39,754 nucleotides of DNA from Balnearium lithotrophicum (GTDB lineage: Bacteria; Aquificota; Aquificia; Desulfurobacteriales; Desulfurobacteriaceae), in the NCBI RefSeq assembly GCF_900182585.1, contig NZ_FXTM01000021.1:1-39754 (forward strand), read 5' to 3'. Both the position numbers and the translations under genes were made by a program. This document shows positions 3,440 to 7,786 of this stretch, piece after piece (the stretch's first letter is position 1; every line of letters begins with the position of its first letter). A model generated the notes under the pieces. That model searched no databases. It had not been told where the DNA came from and saw only the letters and a program-made list of their open reading frames with translations.

Positions 3440-3963
3440 TTTCCGTTCTCCTTAATGACTTTAAAGAAGTTAACAAAGTAAACAATTCCGGTATAGAGTG
3501 CCACGAACGTCGAGATAATAAGAAGTAATTCCCCCAGCACTTTAAACCCTGATAAAAGAAGAACTATTGAACTCATTATAAGGACCGTTTTTAACTTTCC
3601 TCCCTTTGAGGCAGGAATAACAATGCCCCTCGATGCAGCTATCGCCCTCATTCCAGTAACGGCTTCCTCCCTCCCAACAATCGTAATTACAGAGTAGGGG
3701 TCACAGAGCTTCACATAGGCAAGAGAGATTAGCGTTGATGAGGTCAAAAGCTTATCAGCAATAGGGTCAAGAAGTATTCCTAAGTTAGTAACAGACCTGC
3801 TCTTCCTTGCAATGTAACCGTCCAAGAAATCGGTAATTGATGAAAGTAAAAAGAGAACAAGGGAAATTTTAAAGTATCCCTTTACCGTAAAAAGGACGAT
3901 AAAGGGAAGAAGGAGAATCCTAATAAATGTTAGTAAGTTTGGAACAGTTTTGACCCTCTCCAT
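3436..3963 (-). CDS. pgsA: CDP-diacylglycerol-glycerol-3-phosphate 3-phosphatidyltransferase
   Basis: A CDP-alcohol phosphatidyltransferase of the inner membrane that makes phosphatidylglycerol phosphate. The family signature D-x2-D-G-x2-A-R-x8-G-x3-D-x3-D is complete: DFLDGYIARKSR continues into LGILLDPIADK (residues about 40-70). Several membrane segments follow. I use the ATG at 3963; a TTG one codon earlier is possible. The ATG overlaps the dnaN stop in a TGATG arrangement, so translation follows directly from the sliding clamp gene. Confidence 0.94.
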   Translation of the reverse strand: MERVKTVPNLLTFIRILLLPFIVLFTVKGYFKISLVLFLLSSITDFLDGYIARKSRSVTNLGILLDPIADKLLTSSTLISLAYVKLCDPYSVITIVGREEAVTGMRAIAASRGIVIPASKGGKLKTVLIMSSIVLLLSGFKVLGELLLIISTFVALYTGIVYFVNFFKVIKENGK

Positions 3964-5057
3964 CAAATTTTCATAGGCATAACAACGTTTTTAAGCTGTA
4001 TTTCTTCATCAGAGGTAATGAGAACAGGACTTAAAGGTTCACTCATTTGAAATTTTATAGAGGAAGCATCAAAGGAACTAATCGATTCAATCATATGAAC
4101 AATATTAAAGCTTATCGTGAAAGGCTCTCCTGAGTATTCAACAGGTATTGTTACCTCTGCCTCCTCAGAATACTCTCCCTCTAACTTTTTCGTATTGAGC
4201 GTTAAACTGTTTTCGTTTAAGTTGAATACAACTGCCCTTACTTCTTCCTTGTCAAAAATGATTGAAACCTCCTTAAGGGCCGATAGGAGCTCTTCCCTGT
4301 CCGCAACAAAGGAAATGGGATTGCTCTCGGGGATAACCGATAGGTAATCCGGATACTCTCCCTCTATTAGAGAGGTCCACATAATTGTATCTCCGCTTCT
4401 CAGGAAGAGCTTATTGTTCATTTCAACAAAGTCCACTTCCTCACCCTCTCTGAGAACCTTTTTAAGCTCACTGAGGGATTTTTTTGGCAAAATAGCACTA
4501 AACTCCTCAGAAGGGACAAAAACCTCGTAGAGGGCCAATCTGTGGCCGTCTGTGGCTACTGCATGAAGCCTGTCACCCAAAGACCTTAGAAGAACTCCAG
4601 TTAATATGTAACGGGCCTCATCTGTACTTGCCGCATAGGATACCTTTTTGAGAGCTCTGTCTATCTCCTCTGAGGGAAGCTTAACTGTGAAGTTCTCCGG
4701 GAGTTCTATCTCTGGAAATTCATCAGGAGGAAGAGTAGCAAGTGAAAATCTTGAATTTGCCGAGCGAACGATGAGTTTTGAATCTCCCGCCTCTAAAGTA
4801 ATTTCATTTCCCGTTAAGGATGAAAAGAGCTTTGTTGCTTTGTTTGCATTTACTGTTGTTCTTCCTTCTTTTTCCACAGAACAATCCACAACTGTGGATA
4901 TTCCAACCTCCAAATTTGTCGCCGTGAGCCTTAGTAAGTTGTCCTCAGCCTCAAGGAGAATATTTGAAAGAATAGGAATTGTTCCTCTTTTGTCAGCCGC
5001 CGACGCCGTTAATTTTACAGCATCCCTCATCTTTAGTTTGGATACCCTAATTTGCAT
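3963..5057 (-). CDS. dnaN: DNA polymerase III beta subunit (sliding clamp)
   Basis: The ring-shaped clamp that tethers polymerase III to DNA. The 364-residue protein has the three repeated clamp domains; MQIRVSKLKMRDAVKLTASA opens the first, GVLLRSLGDRLHAVATDGHRLALYE is the conserved core of the second, and the C-terminus ends in NVVMPMKI, matching the usual VMPM(R/K) ending. GGAGGAAGG precedes the ATG. It is the first gene of a five-gene leftward operon and lies next to the origin, on the opposite side from dnaA; both genes point the same way. Confidence 0.96.
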   Translation of the reverse strand: MQIRVSKLKMRDAVKLTASAADKRGTIPILSNILLEAEDNLLRLTATNLEVGISTVVDCSVEKEGRTTVNANKATKLFSSLTGNEITLEAGDSKLIVRSANSRFSLATLPPDEFPEIELPENFTVKLPSEEIDRALKKVSYAASTDEARYILTGVLLRSLGDRLHAVATDGHRLALYEVFVPSEEFSAILPKKSLSELKKVLREGEEVDFVEMNNKLFLRSGDTIMWTSLIEGEYPDYLSVIPESNPISFVADREELLSALKEVSIIFDKEEVRAVVFNLNENSLTLNTKKLEGEYSEEAEVTIPVEYSGEPFTISFNIVHMIESISSFDASSIKFQMSEPLSPVLITSDEEIQLKNVVMPMKI

Positions 5058-5079: not shown

Positions 5080-5354
5080 TTCCTTATTTTTCTTATAAGA
5101 GTATTACTATTTATATAGTAATAATAATTATAGGTGCACAAATTTTGTGCACTAAAACAAAAGTTTCTTTGTTTACAAGGGCTTGAAGCTAAAAAGTTAT
5201 CCACACAGTGTGGATAACTCCCCAATTTTTCTGTGGATAAGTCTGTGGATAACTTTTTTCTGTGGATAACTACCCTAACTATCATTTGAGTTATCCACAT
5301 CAATTTTGTTATCCACATAATTATCCACATAGTTATCCACAGTACTGTGGATAA
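5080..5354. other. oriC: Probable chromosomal replication origin (oriC)
   Basis: Ten exact copies of the DnaA box TTATCCACA lie within 158 bases. Plus-orientation boxes start at 5197, 5291, 5309, 5321 and 5333. Minus-orientation boxes (TGTGGATAA) start at 5209, 5232, 5244, 5261 and 5346. They form two facing clusters: four minus boxes at 5209-5269 and four plus boxes at 5291-5341. Several neighbouring boxes are 12 bases apart. An AT-rich tract at 5080-5135, including TAGTAATAATAATTATAG, is a candidate unwinding element and resembles DnaA-trio repeats. The site lies between dnaN and dnaA, a classic origin position, and its right half is inside the dnaA reading frame. Confidence 0.92.
5127..5155 (-). 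promoter_or_regulatory. Putative dnaN-operon promoter with palindromic operator
   Basis: On the minus strand a perfect TATAAT (5132-5127) lies 70 bases before the dnaN start. A weak -35 (TTAGTG, 5155-5150) is 17 bases upstream. The space between them is almost filled by the perfect inverted repeat GTGCACAAATTTTGTGCAC (5134-5152; 9-base arms and one central base). A second inverted repeat, TATTACTAT/ATAGTAATA (5102-5110 and 5115-5123), lies just downstream. The position suggests a repressor or activator site controlling dnaN and the lipid genes, but the binding protein is unknown. The AT-rich stretch may also belong to the origin unwinding region. Confidence 0.45.
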
Positions 5355-6720
5355 CTTGCAGTCTTCTTTCTATAGCTTCTCTTATCCTTAGCTCTAAGTT
5401 GTTGACCAACTGTTTTACCGATTCATCGGAATTTATCATCTCCTCAACCTTTCTGACTGCGTGAATTACTGTTGTATGGTCGTCCCTGTTAAATGCTGAT
5501 GCTATCTGTGTGTAGGGATAGTTTCCCACCTTTTTCGATAGGTACATCGCTATTTGTCTTGCAAATGCGATATTCTTCTTTCTTGAAGGACCTTCAAGTA
5601 GTTCAACATCCACTTTCAATTCCTTTCCTACCAGCTTTTTAATTGTATTTAATGAAACCTCTCTAAGGGCCTTTTCTCTATCTTCACTGCTTCTCTCCTC
5701 AGAGAAGAGCTCCCTCACAAGTTTCTCATTTATCGGCTTTCCCTCTAAGTTTGATTTCGCCTTGAGCTTTATGAGGGCACCCTCAAGCTGTCTTATGTTT
5801 GACTTAATTATTGAGGCAATGAGTTTAATAACCTTATCACTTACCTCTATTCCCTCTTCCTCAGCTTTCCTCTTTAAAATTGCAACTCTTGTTTCAAAGT
5901 CCGGTGGTTGAATATCTGCTATGAGTCCCCATTCAAACCTACTCCTCAGCCTCTCAGTTAACGTCGGAATGTCCTTCGGGGGTCTATCACTGGTTATTAC
6001 AACCTGTTTTCCTGCATCGTAAAGGGCATTGAAGGTGTGGAAAAACTCTATCTGAGTTCTTTCCTTCCCTCCTATGAACTGAATATCGTCTATCAGGAGA
6101 ACATCAACGTTTCTGTACCTTTCTTTAAACTCTTGAATGTTATCGGACTTCAATGCTTCTATCAGCTGATTCATAAAAGTTTCTGTTGTTAGATAAACTA
6201 CCTTTTTTCCCGGATTGTTTCTTAAAATGAAGTTCCCAATTGCCTGCATAAGGTGGGTTTTCCCAAGTCCTACTCCACCGTATATGAATAGGGGGTTGTA
6301 GGCCCTTCCCGGATTTTCCGCAACTGCCAGAGCCGCAGCGTGGGCAAACTGGTTACTTGCTCCAACGACAAAGTTTTCAAAAGTATACTTTGGGTTTAGA
6401 TTTGATTTAAAAGTTTCTCTCCTTTCTTCACCTTTCGTTTTAAATAGGTCAAGCTCCAACTGTTGAGGCTGATTTAGCTCTTCTGAGGAAATGAGCTCTA
6501 CCTCAAGCTTTCTCCCGTACGTTTTCTCAGCTACTTCTCTTAAAAGTCCTAAATGGTGCTTTATTATTAAATTCTTGGCCACTTTATCCTTTACCTTAAG
6601 CCTTAAGGTGTTCTCATTAATATCTATGAGCTCCAATTTACTAAAAAGGGTCTTAAAGAGGCTCTGTTTGGTTCTTTTCCTTATATTCCTCAAGAACTCC
6701 TCAAAGAAGTTGTTTACCAC
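5275..6720 (-). CDS. dnaA: Chromosomal replication initiator DnaA
   Basis: The AAA+ initiator that binds DnaA boxes and opens the origin. Visible in order: the domain I helix NNFFEEFLRNIRKRTKQSLF; Walker A GGVGLGKTHLM; Walker B VLLIDDIQFI; the arginine-finger region RLRSRFEWGL; and the C-terminal DNA-binding signature near FNRDDHTTVIHAVRKVEEM. The GTG at 6720 is chosen because GGGAGG lies six bases upstream; the frame is open to an ATG at 6747. The start lies inside the 3' end of the upstream glycosyltransferase gene. The last 26 or so residues are encoded by the DnaA-box cluster and read as a repeating V-D-N pattern, an unusual tail that is probably a by-product of the origin sequence. Confidence 0.97.
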   Translation of the reverse strand: MVNNFFEEFLRNIRKRTKQSLFKTLFSKLELIDINENTLRLKVKDKVAKNLIIKHHLGLLREVAEKTYGRKLEVELISSEELNQPQQLELDLFKTKGEERRETFKSNLNPKYTFENFVVGASNQFAHAAALAVAENPGRAYNPLFIYGGVGLGKTHLMQAIGNFILRNNPGKKVVYLTTETFMNQLIEALKSDNIQEFKERYRNVDVLLIDDIQFIGGKERTQIEFFHTFNALYDAGKQVVITSDRPPKDIPTLTERLRSRFEWGLIADIQPPDFETRVAILKRKAEEEGIEVSDKVIKLIASIIKSNIRQLEGALIKLKAKSNLEGKPINEKLVRELFSEERSSEDREKALREVSLNTIKKLVGKELKVDVELLEGPSRKKNIAFARQIAMYLSKKVGNYPYTQIASAFNRDDHTTVIHAVRKVEEMINSDESVKQLVNNLELRIREAIERRLQVIHSTVDNYVDNYVDNKIDVDNSNDS

Positions 6721-7786
6721 TAAGAACCTCCCGGTAGAGCTCCACATAAGAGTTTACCATTCTATCAACTGAAAACTTCTTTGTAACAAGATTGTAAGCT
6801 TTCTCAACCAAGTGATTTGAAAGTTCTCTATCCGTCACTATTCTGACTATTGCATCGGCTAAGAGTTCTGGGTTGTTTGGAGGTACTAAGAGTCCCGTCT
6901 CTTCGTTTTCAACAACCTCACCCGTTCCACCAACGTTGGTTGAAACAACAGGAACCTTGAGTACCATTGCTACAAGCAGGGAACTTCCAAGCCCCTCGTT
7001 TTTTGATGGTAGAACAAAAACGTCTAATGCCTTTGTATAATTAACAATATCATCCACAAATCCGTAGAGAATAAAACTTTTAGAGATTCCCTTACTATTT
7101 ATAATTTTCTGGAGTTTTTTCCTCAGTTTTCCCTCACCAAAAACGAAAAACTTTCCATTGGTAAGTTTCTCTAAAACCTTTTTAGATGCCTCTATTAGAT
7201 TGGGGATGTCTTTTTGTTCCGTTAGAGCTGCAAGCGTTCCAACTGTCGGATTTCCATTAAGTTCTTTTTTAATATTTTCAACTATTTCACTTTTTACTTT
7301 TCTCTCTATGTCCCTTACATCAACCGAAGAGTAAATAACTTCTGTTCTGTTCGTTAAAAATGGAAAACTTTCCAACACTATTCTTCTTACAGCTTCTGTT
7401 ATTGAAACTATTTTGTCTGTATTCTTATATTTTAAATAGGTAAGTCTATTTTTCCTCGGTCTGTAATCGACTCTCCTTGTATAAACTACAGGTTTCCTGT
7501 GTAGTTTTTTCGAAAGGGCTGAAATCGTGTGTCCCTTTGCAGAGTGGGCATGGATAATGTCAAACTTTCTTCCTATATAGCCCAATCTCAAAATGTCAGA
7601 CGTTTGATTTCCCTTTAAAGGGACAGTCTCTATTCCTTCCTTTTTACACTTTTTAAACAGTTCGTCTCCTGTTCTGCAGGCTACAGCTGAGGTTATCCCC
7701 TTTTCTCTCAACCCTTTGACTAAGTAAAGGAGCTGCTGCTCTCCTCCTCTCCACCCTTTTTCTGTGTCAACGTGTAGAATTTTCAT
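6701..7786 (-). CDS. Glycosyltransferase family 1/4 (GT-B fold)
   Basis: A 361-residue glycosyltransferase. The N-terminal half begins MKILHVDTEKGWRGGEQQLL, a Rossmann strand with the glycine-rich loop usual in family 4 enzymes, and DIIHAHSAKGH follows. The C-terminal donor-binding half has VGTLAALTEQKDIPNLIEA, FILYGFVDD, and the E-x7-E type motif in FVLPSKNEGLGSSLLVAM. Acceptor and donor cannot be told from sequence; cell-envelope or lipopolysaccharide sugars are the likely use. Its 3' end overlaps the dnaA start by about 20 bases. It is divergent from proS, separated by 44 bases. Confidence 0.85.
   Translation of the reverse strand: MKILHVDTEKGWRGGEQQLLYLVKGLREKGITSAVACRTGDELFKKCKKEGIETVPLKGNQTSDILRLGYIGRKFDIIHAHSAKGHTISALSKKLHRKPVVYTRRVDYRPRKNRLTYLKYKNTDKIVSITEAVRRIVLESFPFLTNRTEVIYSSVDVRDIERKVKSEIVENIKKELNGNPTVGTLAALTEQKDIPNLIEASKKVLEKLTNGKFFVFGEGKLRKKLQKIINSKGISKSFILYGFVDDIVNYTKALDVFVLPSKNEGLGSSLLVAMVLKVPVVSTNVGGTGEVVENEETGLLVPPNNPELLADAIVRIVTDRELSNHLVEKAYNLVTKKFSVDRMVNSYVELYREVLSGKQLL

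Follow-up and report, generated by a model that had tools for sequence, protein, structure and literature searches.

The dnaA-dnaN Region and Its DnaA Boxes

The window analysed here is the whole stretch of 39,754 nucleotides from Balnearium lithotrophicum (Desulfurobacteriaceae; contig NZ_FXTM01000021.1). It carries dnaA and, next after it, dnaN, together with an array of exact DnaA boxes (TTATCCACA) that lies partly inside the 3' end of dnaA and partly between the two genes. The genes and the boxes are as follows.

3963-5057, minus strand: dnaN, DNA polymerase III beta clamp (TIGR00663, 282.8 bits, cut-off 137.65)
5197-5205, plus strand: DnaA box, outer, noncoding, the last of the array in the dnaA-to-dnaN direction (exact match)
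5209-5217, minus strand: DnaA box, noncoding (exact match)
5232-5240, minus strand: DnaA box, noncoding (exact match)
5244-5252, minus strand: DnaA box, noncoding (exact match)
5261-5269, minus strand: DnaA box, noncoding, just past the dnaA stop (exact match)
5275-6747, minus strand: dnaA, 490 aa as listed (TIGR00362 DnaA equivalog, 531 bits, cut-off 343.9)
5291-5299, plus strand: DnaA box, coding, fourth VDN, noncoding in same-genus relatives (exact match, alignment)
5309-5317, plus strand: DnaA box, coding, third VDN (exact match, alignment)
5321-5329, plus strand: DnaA box, coding, second VDN (exact match, alignment)
5333-5341, plus strand: DnaA box, coding, first VDN (exact match, alignment)
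5346-5354, minus strand: DnaA box, coding, VIH, adjoining the stop codon in the no-tail g7 genomes and G012 (exact match, alignment)

The original prediction had described ten perfect boxes in 158 bases, and all ten were found at 5197-5354, with none elsewhere in the window. The count expected by chance in the whole window was 0.19 on average and 2 at most (100 dinucleotide shuffles). The rest of the 1.73 Mb genome, which is assembled in 49 contigs, holds 21 more exact copies, scattered and, on any contig, at least about 17 kb apart. The boxes form two facing clusters of four with two outer boxes, as had been claimed, and half of them (5 of 10, at 5291-5354) lie within the dnaA frame. Two details of that description stood in part. 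The start-to-start steps are 12, 23, 12, 17, 30, 18, 12, 12, and 13, so that a 12-base step holds for four of the nine and fails for the other five; and in the stretch 5080-5354, which had been given as the origin, the boxes start only at 5197, the 5080 end being an AT-rich flank.

The listed dnaA start, an ATG at 6747, would put the first 47 nt of the gene (window 6701-6747) within the end of the glycosyltransferase gene upstream. Judging from the local sequence, translation probably begins at the GTG at 6720, which has GGGAGG six bases upstream, and not at this ATG.

Evidence for a Chromosomal Origin

As is characteristic of oriC of the dnaA-dnaN type, a DnaA-box cluster lies between dnaA and dnaN, and the strand composition switches at the site in relatives. 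The skew was computed in two complete relatives, G007 and G013. With gene orientation corrected, the third-position GC skew of G007 passes from -0.17 to +0.12 across dnaA, and the third-position TA skew of G013 changes sign at dnaA and shows the opposite change near 0.9 Mb, about half a chromosome away. The proposal that the dense array is oriC is thus borne out by a codon-corrected switch in both genomes, in GC for one and in TA for the other. Raw GC skew was uninformative in the window, and in the relatives it was weak and driven by gene direction. In G007 and G013, dnaA carries 10-11 boxes, against no more than 2 in any other sampled 20 kb. The two chromosomes differ in the kind of skew that they show at third positions after correction for gene direction: that of G013 (C2) has a strong TA skew and almost no GC skew, and G007 has GC skew and little TA skew.

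Taken together, the box cluster and the skews support a chromosomal origin between dnaA and dnaN. From the anatomy of the site, DnaA would load on the dense consensus boxes and melt the AT-rich, trio-repeat region beside dnaN.

The Box-Encoded Tail and the Position of the dnaA Stop

Translation of the dnaA frame confirmed that the boxes at 5291-5354 are coding and that they give the DnaA C-terminus a V-D-N repeat tail, which reads VIHST-VDNY-VDNY-VDN-KID-VDN-SNDS as encoded by the five coding boxes. The repeats arise because the boxes sit in the frame GTG-GAT-AAY and not TGT-GGA-TAA. Three features of this gene end enter the comparison below.

5275-5355, minus strand: box-encoded C-terminal tail, VIHSTVDNYVDNYVDNKIDVDNSNDS, plus stop (translation, alignment, codons; low AlphaFold confidence)
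5305-5307, minus strand: AAA codon aligned to the TAA or TGA stop of the other g1, g2, and g4 genomes, the second stop loss (alignment)
5356-5358, minus strand: CAA codon aligned to the TAA stop of the no-tail g7 genomes and G012 (alignment)

The dnaA 3' ends were compared over 19 Desulfurobacteriaceae dnaA-dnaN regions, including the window. A dense box array is present in all 19, with a mostly similar orientation pattern. In eight of them (g5, g6, g7, and G012) dnaA stops ahead of the array, and its product is tailless; in the other 11 (the window and ten relatives, from g1, g2, g4, and G007) dnaA runs into the array. Measured from the DHTT motif, DnaA extends for 40-44 residues in the no-tail members of the family and for 58-68 in the tailed ones. 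As a control, 80 unrelated dnaA loci from distant phyla were examined, and their products end 34-39 residues past DHTT, with one outlier; an exact box occurs in the last 150 nt of dnaA in five of these loci, none of which is tailed.

The alignment places the difference at single codons. The codon before the first box is TAA in the no-tail g7 genomes and in G012, which read ..TAA GTT ATC CAC (or CTT ATC CAC), and it is CAA, GAA, AAA, or CGA, followed by GTT ATC CAC, in the tailed genomes. The later boxes are read as GTG-GAT-AAN in the tailed genomes and as TGT-GGA-TAA, a stop, in g6 and partly in g7. In the ten tailed relatives the frame closes behind the third VD box, with the stop as the very next codon in g1, g2, and g4 and one codon further on in G007. 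The window genome alone has AAA in place of this stop, and its frame continues for 10 extra codons (AAA to AGT) through the fourth box to a TAG. The original prediction had proposed to check in relatives whether the tail varies with the boxes; the comparison shows that the array is conserved and that the tail varies with where the stop stands in relation to it. The further suggestion that the origin had created the end of its own initiator agrees with these alignments, in which a stop and a sense codon face each other at one aligned position, twice, and the window frame is extended through the fourth box.

These comparisons suggest an order of events. The array, all of which is outside dnaA in some members of the family, would be older than the tail; loss of the dnaA stop in the lineage of the window would have let translation continue into the boxes; and a second stop loss, which the alignment shows in the window genome only, added its 10 codons and the fourth box. 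This second loss is clearly derived, since the window genome falls within a group whose other members have retained the stop. Where the first step is concerned, the trees favour gain of the tail. The DnaA tree alone is compatible with one change in either direction. The rpoB tree has the no-tail g7 and g6 genomes branching first, and the joint RpoB-DnaA-DnaN tree calls for two changes, of which two gains would be the simplest reading; in the rpoB and joint trees, support for the family's deep forks is weak. No array was found beside dnaA in the outgroup families, and the outgroups therefore cannot polarise the array.

The codons of the tail point to the DNA level. Outside the VIH box, GTG encodes every tail Val (34 of 34), against 14% of Val in the DnaA bodies of the same genes, and GAT encodes every tail Asp (39 of 39), against 28%. 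In the window alone, the chance of the codons found in the four V-D pairs is about 2e-6. An alignment of the ten g1, g2, and g4 genomes, which gives nine distinct rows, shows variation in 2 of 36 box columns versus 14 of 18 spacer columns, and many of the spacer changes alter the residue. Since both codon choice and column variability in the tail follow the boxes, we conclude from the aligned sequences that selection is acting on the boxes as DNA. The idea that the origin constrains the end of DnaA was likewise upheld, with GTG and GAT fixed at box positions and near-invariant box columns beside variable spacer columns. The tail itself is probably mainly a by-product of the boxes. It is also probably disordered, as modelled by AlphaFold2 with the family alignment, which gave it block means of pLDDT of 42-49, versus 78-91 in domain IV.

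Other histories of the array and the tail were weighed against this one. The protein could have come first, as an ancestral unstructured VDN-like tail in whose coding DNA the boxes evolved later, the no-tail relatives having lost it through a stop. The outgroup-rooted DnaA tree, in which one clade is tailed throughout and the other is mixed, would allow such a single loss, and G012 still reads VIH..VDN in frame past its stop; but a normal DnaA ends about 35 residues past DHTT, the boxes outside dnaA in g5, g6, and g7 show a similar layout, the early no-tail branches of the rpoB tree run the other way, and the tail codons are fixed at silent sites, so that we regard this order of events as quite improbable. 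It is also unlikely that selection maintains the tail for a function in DnaA, for instance in modulating domain IV or a partner, and that the coding boxes are kept partly for the protein. Nine g1, g2, and g4 genomes do share one tail length and conserve the VDN repeats, yet the boxes alone explain the conserved residues, the non-box residues vary freely (S/T/N/R, T/D/G/N/S, Y/S/H/F, N/K), and little structure is predicted. DnaA boxes in dnaA regions are often regulatory, and the coding boxes might stand outside the origin proper and serve dnaA autoregulation or DnaA titration. They are, however, continuous with the intergenic boxes and keep the same positions where they are noncoding in relatives, and in Campylobacter jejuni replication of a minichromosome needed the boxes in the dnaA 3' end (PMC6052347); we give a purely regulatory role little credence. 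The account that we prefer, an origin whose older array was entered by dnaA through stop loss and whose boxes are selected as DNA, is held with high confidence on these comparisons, leaving aside the regulator discussed below.

One family would thus offer a readable series of cis-acting origin DNA becoming coding sequence of its own trans-acting initiator: the array is conserved, and the stop comes ahead of it, falls within it, or lies deeper still. How regulatory DNA turns into protein, and whether tails made in this way matter, are general questions that become testable here, since the tail can be taken away with all the boxes left intact.

Spacer, Palindrome, and Trio-Like Repeats

On the dnaN side of the array lie the following elements.

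5080-5133, no strand assigned: AT-rich presumed DNA unwinding element, adjoining dnaN (sequence; inferred)
5116-5127, minus strand: DnaA-trio-like repeats TTA-TTA-TTA-CTA (other strand TAG-TAA-TAA-TAA), presumed unwinding site (sequence, comparison)
5134-5152 (core 5135-5151), no strand assigned: palindrome GTGCAC-N7-GTGCAC, matching the NtrC operator (motif, comparison)
5152-5196, no strand assigned: 45-bp spacer, constant in length and not in sequence (length exact in 13 of 19 origins)

The spacer from the array to the palindrome is exactly 45 bp in those 13 origins, and it is 44-45 bp after a last box with one mismatch in g5 and g7; its sequence identity between genera is 33-37%. At its end TGCAC-N7-GTGCA is found in 18 of the 19 origins, 13 times perfect, three times with one mismatch, and twice in degenerate form. 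In G012 (locus L021) an exact DnaA box takes the place of the palindrome at the 45-bp position, and the trios follow 25 bp on, nearer to a canonical unwinding module. Directly past the palindrome come the trio-like repeats (TTATTATTACTA in the window), and then dnaN. At least three trio motifs, the number asked of a basal unwinding system (BUS), are present in 15 of the 19 origins by a strict rule, and the window has four. The BUS rule also places a DnaA box within 16 bp of the trios (PMC8287927). No box with two or fewer mismatches was found within that distance in the window, where the nearest exact box is 69 bp from the trios and the best near site has three mismatches. An RNA hairpin or terminator was considered for the palindrome and rejected, an A7 or T7 inner spacer in some genomes breaking the inner pairing while GTGCAC is kept.

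The 17-bp NtrC operator consensus is TGCACCAnnnTGGTGCA (PMC8743547; PMC4987338), and the window palindrome conforms to its TGCAC-N7-GTGCA pattern. Perfect palindromes with an A/T spacer number 22 in 22 family genomes, against none for the reversed control; 12 are at oriC, nine are beside P-II, amtB, or glnA genes, and one is elsewhere. This lone copy (L213, in G010:C1) closely precedes a small gene for an excisionase-like helix-turn-helix protein. Four of the nine nitrogen-gene sites are separated from the gene by a sigma-54 promoter that agrees with the consensus at 10 or 11 of its 11 bases. In the window genome, copies with one mismatch lie upstream of both P-II and glnA, and P-II is also preceded by a perfect sigma-54 promoter. 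Its NtrC-like protein has TIGR01818 ntrC as best match, at 474 bits, below the cut-off of 558.6. The related family f3 has two sites before P-II and three near speD-like genes. The latter (L257, L259, and L260; TGCAC-W7-GTGCA) were assigned by eye to S-adenosylmethionine decarboxylase-like genes, and they possibly belong to an extended nitrogen regulon or a polyamine regulon.

At oriC itself no GG-N10-GC sigma-54 core was found between the array and dnaN in 18 of the 19 origins. The site is therefore not an ordinary enhancer there, and the candidate role of a sigma-54 enhancer for dnaN was rejected on this ground.

The palindrome could instead be a divergent, weak DnaA site beside the trios, in the manner of a BUS. 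Its half site, TTGTGCACC, matches TTATCCACA at six of nine bases, and the position is filled by an exact TTATCCACA in G012. Against this, the same perfect palindrome stands upstream of P-II, amtB, and glnA, several times with a perfect sigma-54 promoter, where DnaA would not be expected, and it matches the 17-bp NtrC consensus (PMC8743547). A weak DnaA site seems to us rather unlikely, and from the motif comparison the palindrome at a fixed 45 bp beside the trios is a probable NtrC operator. Nitrogen status might then modulate unwinding through this candidate site, a suggestion outside the confidence given to the main account. The full proposal, that an NtrC-type regulator binds a fixed-phase oriC unwinding site and gates initiation by nitrogen status, at an array captured stepwise by the initiator gene, is offered tentatively, as one that could well fail. 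Were it true, the operator at its constant distance would connect nitrogen sensing directly with the start of replication in deep-branching chemolithotrophs. Few papers deal with both NtrC and oriC, and none, judged by title and abstract, appears to describe NtrC acting at an origin.

Comparison with Known Systems

DnaA boxes in the dnaA 3' end are not unprecedented, being known from Campylobacter jejuni and Bdellovibrio. The authors of the C. jejuni study stated that an oriC lying partly in a coding region had not been reported before (PMC6052347). The likeness to our case lies in these boxes; no repeat-encoded protein extension is described for C. jejuni, whereas five exact coding boxes and a series of stop positions are found here. 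The oriC of Bdellovibrio bacteriovorus has eight DnaA boxes, two of them in the dnaA 3' end before the stop and bound by DnaA (PMC5124646); neither an evolutionary series nor a repeat C-terminal extension is described for these two coding boxes, compared with five in the window. Two Thermus dnaA-dnaN arrays (L088 and L092) resemble that of the window in that their exact boxes, eight or nine in number, form facing groups in which steps of 11-12 bp are common, but all these boxes are noncoding and dnaA ends before them. Both arrays begin 4 bp past the dnaA stop, and a single stop loss might make a repeat tail there too. In yeast and fly, proteins are extended at the C-terminus by stop-codon loss into noncoding DNA (PMC4494051); here the captured DNA is a functional site, presumably bound by the same protein.

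For the regulator, the orphan response regulator Cj1509 binds the oriC unwinding region of C. jejuni (PMC6052347), and the Desulfurobacteriaceae origin has a predicted NtrC-type site instead. CtrA, Spo0A, MtrA, and HP1021 are response regulators that act at oriC (PMC4285127, PMC8488378). As in those systems, the site would lie in or near the unwinding region and couple initiation to the state of the cell, although an NtrC-type regulator is absent from that set. As in the BUS, the DnaA boxes are followed by trio repeats of the appropriate type, the one known from B. subtilis and H. pylori; unlike in the BUS, the array is 64-75 bp from the trios, with the NtrC-like palindrome in the place of the proximal box, G012 (25 bp) being the exception. 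What is new is the combination of a series of stop positions within one family, a box-encoded tail, and a fixed-phase site of predicted NtrC type.
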